This document shows, piece after piece, positions 8,099 through 57,138 of a stretch of 64,000 nucleotides of DNA. The DNA lies in the NCBI RefSeq assembly GCF_028583425.1, contig NC_072800.1, positions 90,224,501-90,288,500 on the forward strand, given 5' to 3'. Below the pieces are notes generated by a model. It did not search any database, was not told the origin of the DNA, and saw only the letters and a program-made list of their open reading frames with translations. Every line of letters starts with the position of its first letter. The stretch's first letter is position 1. The position numbers and the translations under genes were made by a program. Source of the DNA: Eublepharis macularius (Eukaryota; Chordata; Lepidosauria; Squamata; Eublepharidae).

Positions 8099-9646
8099 CT
8101 ATTTTGTGCCTAACTGACAGCGTAGGCGGTATCTAAATTGGATGTCACGGACTGGCAGAATTGTTCCAAAGCCAAACTGGCTCTTATCAGCTGGAGGTAT
8201 TTCTTCTTCTCCATTAACCAATTCAATGTCAAAGTAGGCCAGCATAAGGAAAACGAACGTTTTTATTTCAGTCACGGCAAGGAAACGTCCAGGGCATTTG
8301 GATGGCCCCATTCCAAAGGGCATGTTATGGTATTTTAGTTTTTTTCCATTCTTGTAGAAGCTCTTTACAGATCCATCAAAGTTCAGAAATCGGTCATATT
8401 GGAAAGTCAGAGGCTCAGGGTAGACTTCTGGATCTATATGCATGGCCACATACGGGGAAAGCGCAATTCTGTCTCCCTTGCGGAGAGCATATTTCCTCCC
8501 ATTGTCCATCTTGAGGTCCATATCCTTTACCACAGCTCTCATCAGAATCGACTGCACTTTCAAGCGCAGGGTCTCTTCAATCACGCTCTCCAGAACTGGG
8601 CTCTTTGTTAACATCTTCCTAGTGAGATCCATCAACGGGTCACCTAATTTCACTTGCGGGCCGTTCTCTTTTAGCAGTCCATTTACTTCTTTCCTCGCTG
8701 CTTCCATGGCTTCAGGACATTTTAGCAGATGCACAAGAACCCAAAAAGAGGCCGGGCCAGTATTCGTCTGAACCGTCCAGAGAAGAAGAAAGAGGAATCT
8801 TGTTCTGATGTTTTCTGGCATCCCTTTTTCGGCCAACGTCCGTTCTTGTTCACTTACCCAGTTACTAACGTTGTATCTCTTATGTATCTTATTCACTGAT
8901 AGGATATCCCAGAAGAGATGGTATAGCTGCTGTGCTTCCTTTCTTTTCCCAGGAGCCAGTGTGTTATAGACCAGGCTGGGGACCAAGTGATCAAACTTCT
9001 GAAATTTTTCAAAGAGCATTTCAAACTGGCTAATTTCGTGATCTGTCAGTTTTGCTTTCTTTTCTGCGTGGTCATTTGACTCATGCCCAAAAAAACTAAG
9101 GAAAGAAGATTTGAAAATGGTGTTGCAGCTGTAGTGGTAGACTCCATCTTCTTGCCAGGAACTGTTCCCATCTTTGGAGCCCATTTTATGGAACATCACA
9201 GTTTGTAAGTTCTCAACCATGGCCTGATTCATAACGGCTAATCCATCTCCCATGAGATATTTTACACTTGATGCCTGAATGAGCTTATGGTCCTCTCCAG
9301 CAGGATGAAACCGAAACAAAGCCGAGACGAACTCTGATCCAAACATGTCAAAGTCCAGCTTACTTTTGGATTCTTTCACTATGGCTCCATAAGAATGAGG
9401 CTCCAGCACAAAAGTGATGAAGTGGCCTCCGATCAGAAGTGTGAAGATATCTCCATGCTTCTTTCGCATTCTTTGCAGAACTCCAAGACCGTCTTGCTTG
9501 AAATCTAGCGCATAACCCAGCCATGGAATGAAGCCTTTGTCCAAGGGAGGCTCCTTAGCTCTCCGCCTGCGGAACGCTCCCATCAAATAGAGTCCAGAAA
9601 ATAGGAACAGTAACAGAGAAAACAGCACTGTCTCCCAGGCTGCCAT
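8099..9646 (-). CDS. CYP8B1-like: CYP8B-type cytochrome P450, copy A (intact, single exon)
   Basis: The 515-residue single-exon reading frame matches the CYP8B family, whose known member adds the 12-alpha hydroxyl group to bile-acid precursors in the endoplasmic reticulum of liver cells. A hydrophobic N-terminal anchor covers about residues 4-22, followed by a basic stretch (RRRRAK) and the proline-containing hinge PPLDKGFIPWLG. The I-helix has the family's unusual TNTGPASFW in place of AGxDT. The ExxR motif is ETLR at 358-361 and the heme motif is PFGMGPSKCPGR with Cys451 as iron ligand. Length equals that of mammalian CYP8B1 within about 15 residues, and mammalian CYP8B1 is also intronless. 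The ATG at 9646 aligns with the usual family start and sits about 47 bases below a TATA box. It is clearly more distant from copies B and C than they are from each other. Family assignment is firm; orthology to CYP8B1 versus a reptile paralogue is not. Confidence 0.93.
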   Translation of the reverse strand: MAAWETVLFSLLLFLFSGLYLMGAFRRRRAKEPPLDKGFIPWLGYALDFKQDGLGVLQRMRKKHGDIFTLLIGGHFITFVLEPHSYGAIVKESKSKLDFDMFGSEFVSALFRFHPAGEDHKLIQASSVKYLMGDGLAVMNQAMVENLQTVMFHKMGSKDGNSSWQEDGVYHYSCNTIFKSSFLSFFGHESNDHAEKKAKLTDHEISQFEMLFEKFQKFDHLVPSLVYNTLAPGKRKEAQQLYHLFWDILSVNKIHKRYNVSNWVSEQERTLAEKGMPENIRTRFLFLLLWTVQTNTGPASFWVLVHLLKCPEAMEAARKEVNGLLKENGPQVKLGDPLMDLTRKMLTKSPVLESVIEETLRLKVQSILMRAVVKDMDLKMDNGRKYALRKGDRIALSPYVAMHIDPEVYPEPLTFQYDRFLNFDGSVKSFYKNGKKLKYHNMPFGMGPSKCPGRFLAVTEIKTFVFLMLAYFDIELVNGEEEIPPADKSQFGFGTILPVRDIQFRYRLRCQLGTK

Positions 9647-16425: not shown

Positions 16426-18015
16426 CGTTCTCTTATGAGCTATAAATCTGTGCTGGTAATGAGACCCATCCCAGACATCCTGGAGAAAACTCAGAAAAAC
16501 ACTTCTCTTGGCATCTCTCGAAACCTGGTGGAAGACAGCAGTTCAACGAGCAGCAGCGGTTCATCTTCAGACAACGAGTTTTCAGCACCTCCGGGGAAAA
16601 GACACTTCGGTCCCGTTCCAGAACGTCATTTGTCTGTGCTAGATGGGTCAAATTATCCAGAATTCCCGCAACACCCAGCAGAAACTAAATACCCCGAAGC
16701 CTCACTTCTGCCAGCACTCAAGCCTCCAATACACAAACCAGTGATGGGGGAACTGGGCGATAAGCGATTGCACGGAAGTGAAGAACCACTCATCAGTTCT
16801 TTTGTTCAAGAGGTGGAGGGAATCTGTCCGGAGCGAAAAGAAGTGCAAAGGGGCCATTCCTTGGAAAAAGGCGACAAGAGAGCTTTACAGCCAGAGGCAG
16901 GCTCTGCAGAAGTGTTTCACCCACCATCTCCATAGGAAAAAGACAGTTTGTTGCTACCTGAAGAAGGTAAAAAAGCTGAAGTAGGAAGGTCCCCTGGGTG
17001 CGTTCCCAGACACAGCGTCATAAAAAGCACATTCTACAGCCAGCCGTCAGAGAGCCTTGCAAACGTACCTTCTTCTCCAGGCAAAGAACATCGGAAACAT
17101 TTAGAAAGAGCCAAGAGAACCTATAGGAAAGCAGGATATTCCAAGTCCTCTCTAAGCGGTCTGCGTGAACCTCTTCTGGAGCAGTTTCAGTTGGGGGAAG
17201 GAGGAGGAGGATTATCCGGCGAAGAGGAAACTGGAAGGTGCAGAGAAGGGGGAATTGGCCCCTTGACCAAATCAGCTTCCTTTGATATCGCCCAGAAATC
17301 GCCACGAGTTACTTTTGAGGTTTCCACCAGAAGCCGCTCTCTGGACGATTATAGGATACGAGCGGCGAGCTTTGCCGAGGAGCAATACATCGAAGAGGAA
17401 GATTCTGAACTGATTCCCCAGGGCAGCCCCACGGAAGCAGCTCGTCAGCCTCACCTTTCCGAAGGTGGCTTTGGAAAGACTTCTGCAAAGGACAGCTCAA
17501 AAATAACTACGAAGGAGCAACCGGTATTGTTGGCGCAGCGGGGTGGAAAGCAAAGTTCAGTCGTGGACGTTCAGCCGCAAGAGAAAGCTGTGATTTCAAC
17601 ACAGCAACCTGGAAAAGAGGAAAGCTCACTTGAGAAACCTAAGCCACCTCTTTCTACTAAGATGGGAACAGCGGTTCTAGGAGGAGAAGGCATGATTCTA
17701 ACTACTGAACCATCAGATTCCCCCTTGGCATCAGCTGAAAAGAAGGCAAGTGAGGAACAGTTACAGCAGACATCCAAAGAATCCGTTTTCAGGGGTGCAG
17801 TACCTGTTTCTTTCAAGGGAGAGAGCTCACAATCAGAGACAGCCCCATTGGTTTCCCACGATGCTGAGGGAACAAGACATCTCCCTCATGAGGCAAAACC
17901 CACTTCTCTCCAGGGCTCCCAATCTAGGCCAGGAACAGAATGGTGGGAGGTTAGCATAGAAAACCATAAAACTGCACTCCTCCCAAAAGTGAAAGAACCC
18001 CAGGCCTTGGAATTG
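16426..18015 (+). pseudogene. OBSCN-like: Obscurin-like gene remnant: large inter-kinase exon
   Basis: One frame of 530 codons between an acceptor (CAATGCTTAG) and a donor (GGAATTG|GTGTGAG). It opens with RSLMSYKSVLVMRPIPDIL, then a serine-rich SSSTSSSGSSSDNE tract, then GCVPRHSVIKSTFYSQ, GLREPLLE and a KSASFD phosphosite-like motif. This order is that of the spacer between the two obscurin kinase domains. A single in-frame TAG lies at 16933-16935. It is preceded by a pyrimidine-rich CCATCTCCATAG, so a short intron ending there could remove it, but the sequence before it reads like the same coding region. The segment is shorter than the mammalian spacer, and the immunoglobulin domain expected next is not visible. 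Reading it as a decayed gene is inference; a base error in an active gene is the alternative. Confidence 0.75.
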
Positions 18016-18063
18016 GTGTGAGCCTGTGTAAACAGAGTAAAACATGCAAGCAGTGTGGCCAAT

Positions 18064-37700: not shown

Positions 37701-40286
37701 TTTTTTAGCATTTTTTATTTTTTATTAACTACATTGACTAACAATACAAAGGGAAGACAGGGATCAAGGGGAAAAAGGGAAAAATACCACAACAACTACA
37801 ACATGTAACAACTATACTACACAAAATGTTTTCCCTTCATACTGCCATTATTCAAAAGTTAAAGCTTTATATTATATTGATGGAGTGGTTGACCTTACTA
37901 AATGCAAATTACAATTTAATTTCAAGTTAAATTTTTCTTCCCCTCCTGGGTCCCGGACGCAGTTCTCTCTGAGCAACTGCAGCCGCAGTGCTCGTTTCCT
38001 CCCCCTCCCCCTCAGACTTCTCCTTTTCGTCTTGCTTGGTGCACTGGAATTCTGGGTTCCTGTCCTCAAAATCCCTTAGTTGATCTTCTGATAATATCTT
38101 AAAGGCTTGATCTTTATGGCTGAACCAGATTCCTTTCGGGAATAACCATTTGTACTTTATTCCACGTTCTCTCAGAAGAGCTGCAAACTTTTTATACTTA
38201 AAACGTCTTTTCCGAACTAGAAATGGGACGTCTTTCAATATCTTAATTTTGTTGCCCAAGAAGTCCAGATCCGCATTGTATGAATTGTATAGGATAGTGT
38301 CCCGGATCCTCTTAGATGAAAAATCGATGATGATCACGCGCGGCAACTGACGCTTCATTGCATATTTTGAAGTAGCCCGACGGGCTTCCAAAATGGCGCT
38401 TTTTACTTCTTCTTTAGTTGCCCTCGCGGGTGTCGCCAGTAGTTCCAAGACAAGACCCCGTAAATCCTCGTTTTCCTCCTCTTTCACATTCTGGAGGCGC
38501 AAAATTGTCTGTGTTCGTTCCACTTGTAGCCCAATCAACTGATTCTCCACCAGTTTAAGCTCTTTATTCGTAGCCTCCACGAGTGACGCACTTTCCCGAG
38601 CAGACTTCTCTGCCCCCCCCCCGCTGCTTCCTTAATGGTTTTCACTTCGCTCTCAATTAAGCCTACCCTTTGATCTGTTTCATTCAGCTTGTCAACAAAG
38701 GGTTTTATAGCTTCACCAACCGCCCTCCGTACTATTTCCTCCAGCGATTCTCCCTTTAAGGCAGCCGAAACTGACTTGCCAAGGGCAGGACTTTGTTTTT
38801 TTGTTGCCATTTTGGGGGGGGGCACCAACCAAATCTTGAAACTCAGCAAAGGGGAAGAGTGAGCCTTCTTAGCTTCAGATCTCACCTCTCCTTCACGTAC
38901 GCTTGTAATAACAGAAGGAATTCGCTTACTTGTAGGCTCTCGCCTAGTTCTGCTCTTTGCCGTTTCCCATGGCCCAAACCAAAAGAGGCTATCAAAGATG
39001 CTCACCCACCCAAACTTGCCAAAAAACACAAATGAGCACTGATGCAGTGAACTAAATTCTTCACACAATGTTCACAAAAATAATTTAGTGAATTTGAAAG
39101 TAATATACAAGAGTGAATACAACATGTGAAATTCTAAAACATCATAATCACTATAATATCATCACAATCAATCACACACAGCAAGGTGTTACAACACCGA
39201 GTAGCATGTGTATCCTCAGAAAAGGGAAGAATCCCAAGAGTTCTCTTATGAGCTGTCTTCAGTCAGTACACTGAGGATTCCCGCTGAAACCGCGGGGGCA
39301 GATGAAAAGTCCCTCCGGACAAAGTGGAAAGGAGCTGGAAGACTGGGAGGAGAATGGAATGTGCAGGTGGAGAACAGCAACCGGGAGCCCCCGAGGGGGA
39401 CCTCCCCGCCCGACAAGCCTCCGGGTATCTCAAGCTTGTTTCATGAGCACTTCCTCACGGGGCGTGGTTTCTCCTACCACGATGGTATTTCTCCGACTCT
39501 CCCACAAACTCTTTCACGTGCTGAAACTCTGCGCACTTCCAGGGTCCCTGGAAGTGTGCAGAGTTTCAGCACGTGAAAGAGTTTGTGGGAGAGTCGGAGA
39601 AATACCATCGTGGTAGGAGAAACCACGCCCCGTAAGGAAGTGCTCATGAAACAAGCTTGAGATACCCGGAGGCTTGTCGGGCGGGGAGGTCCCCCTCGGG
39701 GGCTCCCGGTTGCTGTTCTCCACCTGCACATTCCATTCTCCTCCCAGTCTTCCAGCTCCTTTCCACTTTGTCCGGAGGGACTTTTCATCTGCCCCCGCGG
39801 TTTCAGCGGGAATCCTCAGTGTACTGACTGAAGACAGCTCATAAGAGAACTCTTGGGATTCTTCCCTTTTCTGAGGATACACATGCTACTCGGTGTTGTA
39901 ACACCTTGCTGTGTGTGATTGATTGTGATGATATTATAGTGATTATGATGTTTTAGAATTTCACATGTTGTATTCACTCTTGTATATTACTTTCAAATTC
40001 ACTAAATTATTTTTGTGAACATTGTGTGAAGAATTTTGTTTCCCATGGCCCGGCAGCACTCAAGGCGCCGCGCACGTCTGCCGGCCTCCGTAGGGACAAA
40101 CGGGCAATTAACCCCCCGCATTGATTCCAGGGGGCTCTTCCCGCAGCGTCCCGGACCCAGCCTCCCTCACTGGGAGTTTTGGGGGCTAATCTTCGCAGAT
40201 CAGCCGCCCGGACAGGGTGCTCGGCCGCTTCCTCTCGAGCCAGAGAAGAGGAGCGTCCGACATGGCTGAGAAAACGAAACCGAATC
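37701..40286 (-). mobile_element. ORF1-only L1-like LINE (HAL1-like), copy 2, with nested fold-back
   Basis: Target duplication AAAACACCC(A/G)TA(G/A)TCTT at 37684-37700 and 40287-40303; block 2 of the segmental duplication has the empty site near 50300. The ORF1 frame runs from about 38812 down to 37927 and is broken at a run of ten C (plus strand) near 38622-38631. The larger part, 37927-38580, is a 217-residue frame with LRLQNVKEEENEDL, RQLPRVIIIDFSS and IKYKWLFPKGIWF. A 1.06 kb palindromic insert (38976-40037) splits the 5' UTR. Minus-strand insertion after the duplication. Confidence 0.87.
38976..40037. repeat. Near-perfect long inverted repeat (fold-back), 490 bp arms
   Basis: Arms 39055-39544 and 39546-40035 are reverse complements with only a few mismatches and no spacer (centre at 39545, within CTTCCAGGGTCCCTGGAAG). 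A non-palindromic 79-base piece (38976-39054) precedes the left arm. The whole insert has a 14-base target duplication GTTTCCCATGGCCC at 38962-38975 and 40038-40051, splitting the 5' UTR of an L1-like element. Open frames of 104 and 122 codons appear twice, mirrored, and are a by-product of the palindrome. Confidence 0.85.
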
Positions 40287-43120: not shown

Positions 43121-43595
43121 AAAAAGGAAAAGAGGGACGGGAACAAATATTACAATTAAAAGAAAAATAAAGTTACACATCACAAGGACAATCAAAATGC
43201 AATAATCATACAAGATTTATTATATAGCTTCCAGGTAAATAACACTACACAATATTTCCTCTCTCCATCTTGATAAACCAACTATATACTAACTATAAAA
43301 TATTTAGCATTATTAATTAAAATACTTTAACATAGCTATACTTTGTTTGCTGATAAACAATATATTTTAGAATATTTACAAAAGATATATTTAATAAACT
43401 TCCTACATCTAAGACTAATTATATATAGGATATTATATCATGAAAAGTTGTTAGTACTGATTATGTTATGTTATATTGATCAAATTAAATAGCATAGATT
43501 TCTATACACTATATTAAAAATGTAAAGCAAACATCATTACTATAACATCTGCAAATGAAAACTCAGAAAGGAATTTGCAAAATGAATCTGTATCA
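43121..43595. other. AT-rich 3' flank of CYP8B copy B
   Basis: Very AT-rich, shared with 54776-55320 in block 2. No gene. Confidence 0.5.
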
Positions 43596-43601
43596 TTTAT
43601 T
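43596..43601 (-). terminator. Candidate polyadenylation signal of CYP8B copy B
   Basis: AATAAA on the minus strand about 275 bases after the stop codon. The matching place in copy C reads AATAAG. No transcript evidence is available, so this is only a candidate. Confidence 0.35.
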
Positions 43602-43875
43602 TCCTATCACTATCCATAATAGAAGTAATAAGTTTCCCATTTTTTCCCAAATACTTTAAACAGTCTGTTATTTATATAATCCGTTATTTTTACCCTTACA
43701 GCATATTCTGCCAACAAACATTCCCTTACTTCTGGACTTTGGAACTTTTGTAACTGCACCAATTCAAGAGACCTTCAGGGAAATTTATGGTCATTTTACA
43801 GATTTCTCCGCAGGATGGAACAGAATAAAGGACTGTGAGCTAATAAGCAACAGGGTTATGGAAACAACTTTCCTC

Positions 43876-45417
43876 TTAGATTCTCTGTCGATACCTAAAC
43901 TGGATATCATGAGAAGGATGTGAGGTTCCAATCCCACAGCGGCTTGCAACTACCGGTGGTATCTTCTCTTCCCTGTTAACTAGTTCCATGTCAAAGTACA
44001 TGACCATCAACATCACAAAGATCTTCATTTCATTAACAGCAAAGAATCGCCCAGGGCACATGGAAGGTCCACCCCCCCATGGCATGATGGGATACTTTAA
44101 CTTTTCCCCATTCTTATAAAACTCTTTTTTCGTGCCGTCTGGGTTCAAGAATCTGTCATATTTGAAATTCTGGGGATCAGGGTAGATTTCAGGATCCATG
44201 TGCAGGCCAACGAATGGGGAAAGAATGAGCTGGTCTCCTTTCCGCAAGCTGTATTCTCTCCCATCTGCCATTGCAAGGTCCATATCCTCCATTATGCTTC
44301 TGAACAGAAACGGACTTACATTCAAGCGCAGAGTTTCCTGTATTGCGCTGTCCAGAACTGGCGTCTTTATTGTTTCCAAGGATACATTGATCAAGGGGCT
44401 GCCTGGCTTGACCTCCTGATCAGTTTCCTTCAGGATTCGGTCTACTTCTTCCTTCACTGCCTTCATCGCTTCTGGATGTTTCAGGAGATGCACAAAAACC
44501 CAGAAGATAGCTGGTCCGACGTTAGCTTGTGATGCCCAGAACAGCGGAAACATGAATTGGGTCCGCATCTTTTCCTTCATCCCAGTTTCACACATCTGCC
44601 TGTCAATCTCAGCTACCCATTTGCTGATATTATCTTTCTGTGATAGCTTTTCTACAGAAAGCACATCCCAGAAGAAGTTTCTCAGCCTCTCCATCTCCTT
44701 CTTGCTCAGGGGATCCATTATGCCAATGGTCATTTGGGGAAAATACTTGTCAAATTTCTGAAAATCTTCAAACCACTCTCCACACTGGGTTGCTGTATGA
44801 TCCTTAGAAATCTCTTTGCTACATCCACTTTGGGGGGGATCAGTTCCAAACAAAGTCATGAAAGAAGCTTGGAACATGGCTTTGTAGCTGAAGTGGAAGA
44901 CACCGTCCTGCTGCCACGGCCTTTCCCCATCACCTGAGCTCCGGCTTTTTAGCAACACAGTCTTCAAGTTCTCCATCATCACCTGGTTCAACTCAGCTAA
45001 GTTCTTACCTCTAAGATACTTCTTGCTAACTGTTTCCTTAATCTTGTGATGAGATTCACTGAGGTGGAAACCAAATACATTAAAAACAACTGTGGAAGCA
45101 AATGTATCAAAATCCAGCTTGTCCTTTGATTCCTTTATTATAGTCCCATAAGTGTGAGGGTCCATCACAAAATTTAAATAATTGCCACCAACCAGCACTG
45201 TGAAAATATCTCCGTGTTTCTTCTTCATCTTTTCCAGAAACTCCACAGGGTTCTTCTTGAAACTTAAGCCATGTCCGAGCCATGGAATGAGGCCTTTGTC
45301 CAATGGAGCTTCTTTGGGTCTCCTCTTGCGGAAGGCTCCTGCCGTGTAAAGCCCTCCCAGTATGGCAGAAAAGAGGGATGCTAGAAGAGCACAAAGCACA
45401 GACTCCCAGAAATGCAT
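43876..45417 (-). CDS. CYP8B1-like: CYP8B-type cytochrome P450, copy B (intact, single exon)
   Basis: A 513-residue intronless P450 of the CYP8B type. The membrane anchor is at about residues 3-24 (MHFWESVLCALLASLFSAIL), then the basic RKRRPKE and hinge APLDKGLIPWLG. The I-helix carries SQANVGPAIFW, ExxR is ETLR at 361-364, and the heme motif is PWGGGPSMCPGR with Cys454. The C-terminus HPSHDIQFRYRQ is the family's typical end. The open frame continues upstream to 45591, but I chose the ATG at 45417 because it aligns with the start of copy A and of mammalian CYP8B1, and because a TATA box at 45475-45482 lies inside the longer frame. A candidate AATAAA lies about 275 bases downstream (43596-43601). 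The gene lies near the right end of an 11 kb duplication whose other copy holds CYP8B copy C. Expected role: sterol 12-alpha-hydroxylation in bile-acid synthesis, inferred from family. Confidence 0.93.
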   Translation of the reverse strand: MHFWESVLCALLASLFSAILGGLYTAGAFRKRRPKEAPLDKGLIPWLGHGLSFKKNPVEFLEKMKKKHGDIFTVLVGGNYLNFVMDPHTYGTIIKESKDKLDFDTFASTVVFNVFGFHLSESHHKIKETVSKKYLRGKNLAELNQVMMENLKTVLLKSRSSGDGERPWQQDGVFHFSYKAMFQASFMTLFGTDPPQSGCSKEISKDHTATQCGEWFEDFQKFDKYFPQMTIGIMDPLSKKEMERLRNFFWDVLSVEKLSQKDNISKWVAEIDRQMCETGMKEKMRTQFMFPLFWASQANVGPAIFWVFVHLLKHPEAMKAVKEEVDRILKETDQEVKPGSPLINVSLETIKTPVLDSAIQETLRLNVSPFLFRSIMEDMDLAMADGREYSLRKGDQLILSPFVGLHMDPEIYPDPQNFKYDRFLNPDGTKKEFYKNGEKLKYPIMPWGGGPSMCPGRFFAVNEMKIFVMLMVMYFDMELVNREEKIPPVVASRCGIGTSHPSHDIQFRYRQRI

Positions 45418-45474
45418 CACTGGTGTGCAGGGTGGAAATGCTTTAGTCAAAGGAAATGGAAATCCACAGCTCAT

Positions 45475-45482
45475 CTTATATA
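45475..45482 (-). promoter_or_regulatory. TATA box of CYP8B copy B
   Basis: The minus strand reads TATATAAG, 58 bases upstream of the chosen ATG at 45417. It is conserved exactly in copy C. It argues against the longer upstream reading frame being translated. Confidence 0.65.
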
Positions 45483-45894
45483 GCATTGAATCAGTGGGCA
45501 GATGAGGGTTGGCCTGCCTAATTCTATGTTTGAAACAATCAAACACACAATCAATAAGTAAAGTGCAACATGCTCGTATATTCACACACAACTAGTACCA
45601 ATTCTGCCAGTACAATTCATAAGTATACAACAGGTTGTGTATGAATGCTTCCCATAATAATTTATAAACTTTCCAATGACCGTGTCTGTATACTTTAAAT
45701 ATTCTGAAAGCAAGCAATCCTCTGGCATGAGCCTCACTCAGAGAGACTCCGGGACCGAGTCAAGGTAAGTTTTTAGTTCCTTTCATTAATGGGTGTTTTC
45801 TTTCTTTTTCTTCAACAGATGTTTTGATGAAAAGGTGGAGGTCCGAATGCTGCGCCCGAACTGGGGCTGGCTATCATTCACACAGATTTTCGTC

Positions 45895-46459: not shown

Positions 46460-47000
46460 TTTTTGCTCTTAGGGAGACTTTATGAACAAACTGTTCAGGA
46501 CATTCTCGTAAATTGAGTTTAAAGCTTTATGTCTTGCAACTTCCTTTTCAATTTGTATGGCTGTTTTTCGAAAATTTATTTTTCCCTTCATTTCAAGTTG
46601 GGAGATTACTGGCAGAAATGTATGGCCTAGAGATTTAAGCAAAGCTCCAACCTTGACAGAATCATCTTTTTCTTCCCCTGCTTGGGCATACTGAAAGAAC
46701 AGGTCCAGTAGCTCCCTCACGTGACTTTTAAAACTTTGCCCATTTGAACGTCTTAACGCTTGCAATTGATCTTGCAAAAGTGACCTGGTTGCCCAATCAT
46801 CTCTCATATGCTCTTTAAGTATAAGGTCATACATCTGCTTAGCTGTTTCACAGCCCTGAATCAATTCTAGATAATGGGTAGAGATAGAATTTACAATGAA
46901 TGCTTGTGCTATATTATTTTCCTGGTTCCACTTCACTCTCTCGTCACCCTCAGCTGATGGGCCTTTTGTGAGGTGTTTCTCCAGGTGCTTTTTCTTGAGA
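46460..47000 (-). mobile_element. Ty1/copia-like LTR retroelement fossil, gag region
   Basis: Minus-strand coding remnant of 155 codons with KQMYDLILKEHMRDDWATRS, the UBN2-type gag pattern of copia-like elements. Broken, with only part of gag recognised. It lies in the spacer between the duplication blocks, and a matching shorter fossil lies at 58930-59290. A shared non-coding segment (45752-45853 and 58863-58973) sits beside both. Confidence 0.7.
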
Positions 47001-55599: not shown

Positions 55600-57138
55600 T
55601 TAGATTCTCTGTCGATACCTAAACTGGATATCATGAGAAGGATGTGAGGTTCCAAATCCACAGTGGCTTGCATCTACCGGCGGTATCTTCTCCTCCCTGT
55701 TAACCAGTTCCATGTCAAAGTACGTGACCATCAACATCACAAAAATTTTCATTTCATTAACAGCAAAGAATCGCCCAGGGCACATGGAAGGTCCACCTCC
55801 CCATGGCATGATGTGATACTTTAGCTTTTCCCCATTCTTATAAAACTCTTTTTTCGTGCCGTCTTGGTTCAAGAATCTGTCATATTTGAAATTCTGGGGA
55901 TCAGGGTAGATTTCAGGATCCATCTGCAGGCCAACGAATGGGAAAAGAATGAGCTGGTCTCCTTTCCGCAAGCTGTATTCTCTCCCATCTGCCATTGCAA
56001 GGTCCATATCCTCCATTATGCTTCTGAACAGAAACGGACTTACATTCAAGCGCAGAGTTTCCTGTATTGCGCTGTCCAGAACTGGCGTCTTTATTGTTTC
56101 CAAGGACACATTGATCAAGGGGCTGCCTGGCTTGACCTCCTGATCAGTTTCCTTCAGGATTCAGTCTACTTCTTCCTTCACTGCCTTCATCGCTTCTGGA
56201 TGTTTCAGGAGATGCACAAAAACCCAGAAGGTAGCTGGTCCGGTGTTAGCTTGTGATGTCCAGAACAGCACAAACATGAATTTGGTCCGCATCTTTTCCG
56301 TCATCCCAGTTTCACACATCTGCCTGTCAACCTCAGCTACCCACTTGCTGATACTTTCTTTCTGTGATAGCTTTTCTACAGACAGCACATCCCAGAAGAA
56401 GTTTCTCAGCCTCTCTGTCTCCTTCTTGCTCAGGGGATCCATTATGCCAATGATCATTTGGGGGAGGTACTTGTCAAATTTCTGAAAACCTTCAAACCAC
56501 TCTCCACACTGGGTTGCTATATGATCCTTAGAAGTTTCTTTGCTATCTCCACTTTGGGTGGGATCGGTTCCAAACAAAGTCATGAAAGCAGCTTGGAACA
56601 TGGCTTTGTAGCTGAAGTGGAGGACACCATCCTGCTGCCACGGCCTTTCCCCATCACCTGAGCCCAGACCGCAAAATATCACAGTCTTCAAGTTCTCCAT
56701 CATCACCTGGTTCAACTCAGCTAAATTCTTACCTCTAAGATACTTCTTAACTGTTTCCTTAATCTTGTGATGAGATTCACTTGGGCGGAAACCAAATACA
56801 TTAAAAGCAACTGTGGAAGCAAATGTATCAAAATCCAGCTTGTCCTTTGATTCCTTTATTATAGTCCCATAAGTGTGAGGGTCCATCACAAAATTTAAAT
56901 AATTGCCACCAACCAGCACTGTGAAAATATCTCCGTGTTTCTTCTTCATCTTTTCCAGAAGCTCCACAGGGTTCTTCTTGAAACTTAAGCCATGTCCGAG
57001 CCATGGAATGAGGCCTTTGTCCAATGGAGCTTCTTTGGGTCTCCTCTTGCGGAAGGCTCCTGCCGTGTAAAGCCCTCCCAGTATGGCAGAAAAGAGGGAT
57101 GCTAGAAGAGCACAAAGCACAGACTCCCAGAAATGCAT
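55600..57138 (-). pseudogene. CYP8B1-like: CYP8B-type cytochrome P450, copy C, with one nonsense codon
   Basis: Duplicate of copy B, 512 codons before the normal stop, same ATG and TATA context. All P450 landmarks are present in one frame: N-terminal anchor, hinge APLDKGLIPWLG, I-helix SQANTGPATFW, ETLR, and PWGGGPSMCPGR. A single in-frame TGA at 56161-56163 (codon 326) replaces the CGA arginine codon seen in copy B (44437-44439), the classic result of deamination of a methylated CpG. Translation would stop before ExxR and the heme cysteine, so the product could not bind heme. Apart from this the frame is fully open, and one codon is missing relative to B at the KETV-KKYL junction. This points to very recent loss, a polymorphic null allele, or a base-call error. 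A central block (residues about 152-301) differs from B much more than the flanks do. Confidence 0.88.

Follow-up and report, generated by a model that had tools for sequence, protein, structure and literature searches.

A block of high divergence in the middle of two tandemly duplicated CYP8B-like genes, copies B and C, is very probably a mosaic, formed as tandem CYP8B-like genes exchanged short tracts through interlocus gene conversion. Throughout, the window denotes the whole stretch of DNA that was analysed, 64,000 nucleotides in length (C11:90224501-90288500), which belongs to an assembly of 2.24 Gb in 72 contigs.

Searching the 64-kb window and 170 kb of adjoining sequence by tblastn, we find nine single-exon CYP8B-like genes spread across approximately 205 kb. 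Only copies A, B and C lie inside the window; beyond it, D, E, F and G are on the same strand as these three, and H and I are on the opposite strand. The genes in the window, together with a premature stop in one of them, are the following.

8099..9646, minus strand: copy A, an older intact CYP8B-like paralogue, 53% identical to B.
43876..45417 (including the stop codon), minus strand: copy B, an intact single-exon CYP8B-like gene with ETLR and CPGR motifs and a Pfam p450 match.
55600..57138, minus strand: copy C, a tandem duplicate of B with a premature stop, 92.7% identical to B in protein.
56161..56163, minus strand: premature TGA at codon 326 of copy C, where B has CGA; a CpG-type change.

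The frame is open in seven of the nine genes (A, B, E, F, G, H and I) and interrupted in C and D. Copies B to G form one group, with protein identities of 84-93%, and A shares approximately 51-55% with each of them, the figure for H and I being 52-56%. ETLR is present in all nine copies, and the CPGR motif can be read in all nine translations. The closest solved structure to copy B is CYP8B1 (PDB 7lyx, E 1.6e-140), which is the top match for all three copies searched, with bit scores of 542 for H, 472 for B and 435 for A. Judged by their sequence features, that is, by CYP8B1 as closest relative, a single exon, the ExxR motif and the haem cysteine, these genes appear to belong to CYP8B, the sterol 12-alpha-hydroxylase subfamily. 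Since H has the highest 7lyx score among A, B and H, it appears, along with its near twin I, to be a standard CYP8B1 gene, and A and B-G appear to be divergent extras. Genome-wide there are at least 96 Pfam P450 matches; the strongest among the matches listed (on C2) is CYP1B1-like.

Some other features of the region may be recorded here. Copy D (C11:90295166-90296695) has premature stops at codons 265 and 438 and a two-codon deletion; though broken, it has identity tracts with C and G. Within the window, a Copia-type gag fragment (PF14223) lies between B and C at 46469-46936, positions 39050-40040 are a near-perfect palindrome without a spacer, which has 4 mismatches between its two 496-base arms and could stem from a mobile element or an assembly fold-back, and the plus strand of 16435-18021 holds two adjoining long open frames (166 and 357 amino acids) without a Pfam match.

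Copies B and C lie in a duplicated unit of roughly 11 kb, whose alignable flanks are approximately 2% diverged. Measured over gene-spanning BLAST pieces, the flank identity is 96.2% for B-C, 94.6% for B-E, 91.2% for B-G, 89.9% for B-D and 89.7% for B-F. We aligned B and C over window positions 43331-45752 (2414 columns) and located the block by the best two-breakpoint fit of a change-point model.

44507..44955, minus strand: high-divergence block in copy B, with 41 differences in 449 positions versus 43 in 1965 outside.
56231..56679, minus strand: high-divergence block in copy C, from the same B/C fit.

The fitted block, 9.1% diverged inside versus 2.2% outside, corresponds closely to the sharp block of approximately 9% that the original prediction had placed at 44515-44960. 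Nor is the divergence profile along the alignment uniform: the densest 450-base stretch contains 41 differences, a number reached in none of 20000 shuffles, whose maximum was 34. The surrounding divergence had been put at approximately 2% for the first part of the gene, 3% for the last and 1% for non-coding sequence. The second figure is reproduced (18 of the last 616 bases, or 2.9%), but the first is somewhat lower, at 6 differences in 457 (1.3%) over the first 460 coding columns, plus one codon missing in C, and the third is higher, at 1.4-3.1% in the six stretches of flanks and duplicated unit that we measured. Because the non-coding DNA of the unit is diverged to this extent, the background divergence of B and C reflects their duplication, and the block is the exception to it.

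The differences in the block comprise 31 nonsynonymous and 10 synonymous changes (NG86), so that most of them do change amino acids, as had been claimed, but dN/dS between B and C is 0.72, which is below neutral. The synonymous rate is raised alongside the nonsynonymous one, with dS of 0.122 in the block versus 0.021 and 0.075. Both bases of a B/C difference occur in other copies in 27 of the 41 cases inside the block, compared with 11 of 24 outside, an excess that is not significant (Fisher p 0.13). The block is moreover composite: columns 461-785 and columns 786-920 behave differently.

Segment trees and AU tests reveal how the closest relatives of B and C change along the gene. At columns 1-460 the two copies group together (support 93/97.8), while C+D (p 5e-5) and B+E (p 0.020) are both rejected. 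At columns 461-785, which contain 29 B/C differences in 325 positions, B groups with E (100/100) and C is placed with D, F and G; here B+C is rejected (AU p 0.009) and C+D is not (p 0.45). Further along, C+D is rejected again, both at columns 786-920 (p 0.00016), where B+C is not rejected, and from column 921 to the end (p 0.016). In this last segment B+C itself is weakly supported (64/43), and B+E is not rejected (p 0.39); it is the rejection of C+D that demonstrates the return on the 3' side. The closest relative thus switches locally and returns on the other side, which is a mark of interlocus conversion, in tests whose clades were chosen after the alignment was seen and whose data come from one genome. 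Counted site by site, E sides with B, and D and G with C, at 16 of the 29 differences in columns 461-785, at none of the 12 in columns 786-920, and at 5 of the 24 outside.

Even within columns 461-785 the exchange is not continuous. Sites 495, 586 and 597 still carry the same base in B and C, against D=G, and the exchange is therefore patchy, consisting of at least two short patches.

44940..44955 (columns 463-478), minus strand: exchange patch 1 in copy B, of E type, KTVLLKSRSS.
56664..56679, minus strand: exchange patch 1 in copy C, of D/F/G type, KTVIFCGLGS.
44659..44743 (columns 675-759), minus strand: exchange patch 2 in copy B, within the B-E identity tract 669-841.
56383..56467, minus strand: exchange patch 2 in copy C, within the C-D identity tract 669-783.

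Patch 1 concentrates 11 B/C differences in 16 bases. Sites 426 and 495, on either side of it, have one base in B and C and another in D and G, and the patch spans at most columns 427-494; patch 2, flanked by the native sites 597 and 807, spans at most 598-806.

We assessed identity tracts by permutation of 258 polymorphic columns among the six copies B-G. Four tracts stand out in their global P: C-D at 669-783 (0.0004), B-E at 669-841 (0.0014), and D-G at 386-495 (0.0004) and 625-725 (0.0076). Once the cluster at 463-478 is removed, C-D (P 0.0002), B-E (0.0008) and D-G 625-725 (0.0032) are still significant. All four tracts also persist when one site per codon is used (P 0.0 to 0.024), with weaker values for D-G and B-E (0.023-0.024). 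Among the 66 silent sites alone, neither C-D 630-783 (P 0.70) nor B-E 669-816 (P 0.99) is significant, and the sole global P below 0.05 is that of D-F 783-1248 (0.030). With all polymorphic columns, then, the identity tracts exceed the permutation expectation, as interlocus conversion predicts.

The original prediction of conversion from a third paralogue is accordingly supported as regards conversion, with D/G-type partners for C and E-type partners for B, but not as regards copy A. The greater resemblance of C to A that had been noted is marginal, with 131 differences in 325 for C-A and 137 for B-A at columns 461-785, and D-A also at 131. C has no raised similarity to A specific to the block, and A is ruled out as a donor.

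As to the direction of exchange, E is the next closest copy by its flanks, and the ancestor of B and C should therefore have resembled E; in that case C would be the recipient of D/G-type sequence. However, B and E are identical over columns 669-841 versus approximately 4% different outside the block, which suggests an exchange between B and E as well. Both the B-E and the C-D tracts are unexpectedly identical, so either copy may be the recipient in each patch. Comparison with A, H and I as outgroups does not polarise patch 1, where these copies match sometimes one type and sometimes the other.

A separate tract was seen in copy G (C11:90375102-90376637), which is intact and lies outside the window. 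At columns 757-900 it differs by approximately 24-30% from B, C, D, E and F, versus 4.5-6.8% from B-F elsewhere, and the tract shows no particular closeness to A, H or I either. By its sequence, it was likely imported from an unsampled or lost CYP8B lineage.

The remaining part of the block is of another character.

44498..44632 (columns 786-920, 135 bases), minus strand: 3' third of the block in copy B, with excess divergence and no clear donor.

Here B and C differ at 12 of 135 positions, versus 2.2% outside (Poisson 6e-5); five of these changes occur in C alone and one in B alone. The dN/dS over six copies is 1.00 (against 1, p 0.995), compared with 0.42-0.58 in the other segments. We read this third as a region of weak net constraint, possibly with small exchanges added.

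The principal alternative to conversion is that diversifying selection or relaxed constraint in the F-G to I-helix region produced fast amino-acid change without any exchange. Singletons in B and C lend it some weight, with 10 nonsynonymous to 1 synonymous in the block and 4 to 8 outside (Fisher p 0.009, a post hoc comparison), as do those in B alone (5:0 versus 0:4) and the value of 1.00 in the 3' third. Against it, the singletons of all six copies are distributed alike (38:19 versus 56:35, p 0.60), dS is likewise raised, and other copies carry the same changes in phase. Six-copy dN/dS at columns 461-785 is 0.42, and in no segment or branch tested is dN/dS significantly above 1. Among 24 tests with a single foreground branch, none shows a significantly raised value, and the one p below 0.05 reflects a lower value on F. 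These tests were made with our own codon-model code on trees fixed by hand, with some estimates at a bound; foreground values at the upper bound (54.6) merely indicate a branch without synonymous change, and the fit with C as foreground fixed at 1 for columns 460-785 did not converge (LRT 132) and was left out.

The strong selection for a new substrate that had been proposed for the block lacks support on several of these counts, and on one more that the original prediction overlooked, namely the premature stop in C. The frame of C is open apart from the TGA at codon 326, which sits upstream of ETLR and the haem motif. Because the stop precedes both motifs, copy C as assembled cannot make a complete P450, and for the same reason a new substrate for it is unlikely. 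The codon tests do not demonstrate positive selection on the substrate-recognition sites. Weaker selection or relaxed constraint may have acted in the block, on account of the 10:1 excess among changes private to B and C. All told, we hold the purely selective account to be improbable: selection may add to the 3' third, and it does not explain columns 461-785.

Two further accounts fare worse. An assembly or polishing error might have placed paralogue sequence in one copy, near-identical tandem copies being prone to such errors, but the block is no clean copy of a known paralogue: columns 461-785 contain three differences private to C and five private to B, and it is broken up by sites 495, 586 and 597, at which B and C keep their native shared base. 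Similar mosaics occur in D, E and G, moreover, and the window lies within a 95.9-Mb contig, all of which makes such an error very improbable. Nor is there much in favour of denying that B and C are true sisters and supposing that the block keeps their original divergence, the rest having been homogenised by the conversion that is frequent in this array; the unit's non-coding DNA, at up to approximately 10 kb from the block, is where measured as little diverged as the gene ends, which marks the low divergence as that of a duplication and renders this last account hardly credible.

Under conversion among neighbouring copies, the history would run as follows. B and C stem from a recent duplication of the roughly 11-kb unit. 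Pieces of the middle of the gene would afterwards have been overwritten by neighbouring paralogues, giving columns 463-478 and columns 675-759 an E-type sequence in B and a D/G-type sequence in C. Private changes are also present in the two copies, both between the patches and downstream of them, and the last 135 bases of the block appear to evolve with little net constraint. Overwriting between neighbouring gene copies is an ordinary process in gene clusters, and we infer that the exchanges arose by conversion and not by double crossover or some other route.

A bolder proposal, to which we assign little probability, is that the array acts as a cassette system, with the copies preferentially shuffling the mid-gene segment that runs from the D/E-helix region to where the I helix begins. 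Broken copies, D for instance, could then serve as sources, as could lost lineages (the tract at 757-900 of copy G). If this were true, the pocket of the working copies would be diversified, much as donor pseudogenes diversify immune genes.

To place the patches in the fold we rely on sequence alignment to 7lyx and on general P450 anatomy, since structure prediction from a two-row alignment gave a model of B too poor for use (mean pLDDT of 30.5). On this basis, we take patch 1 to lie approximately in the D/E-helix region, away from the classic recognition sites; for patch 2 the F-G region (SRS2/3) is the presumed location, and the 3' third presumably extends into the I helix (SRS4). The locus offers a clean worked case in which conversion makes a young duplicate appear fast-evolving in its active-site region, and such cases are a trap for selection scans based on pairwise dN or local divergence. 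The array itself, with nine CYP8B-like genes of which seven are open, may be of consequence for the diversity of bile salts in this lineage; CYP8B1 is named as the 12-alpha-hydroxylase in work on reptile bile salts (PMC2886068). In the open-licence literature we found no description of 8B copy number in reptiles, and from titles and the opening of abstracts we recognised no account of this array.

The mechanism is already known, and this locus is a further case of it. Short tracts are exchanged between a P450 gene and its neighbouring pseudogene at CYP21A2/CYP21A1P and CYP2D6/CYP2D7; those, however, are human medical loci, whereas ours is a vertebrate gene array. Like human CYP8B1 (7lyx), the best solved relative of B, A and H, the genes of the array have a single exon. 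Duplicated P450 paralogues are likewise shaped by conversion in the CYP6B genes of Helicoverpa zea, an insect detoxification family for which 5'-polar conversion is described (PMC7830528). The closest parallel in form is mammalian CYP1A1/CYP1A2, where conversion is described as limited to parts of the genes that overlap substrate-recognition sites, the rest staying diverged (PMC3199271). There, as here, partial conversion between P450 paralogues touches recognition sites; but CYP1A1 and CYP1A2 are two head-to-head genes in which conversion lowers divergence at SRS1 and SRS5 (PMC3199271), whereas the CYP8B array has nine genes and exchange raises the mid-gene divergence of a young pair.
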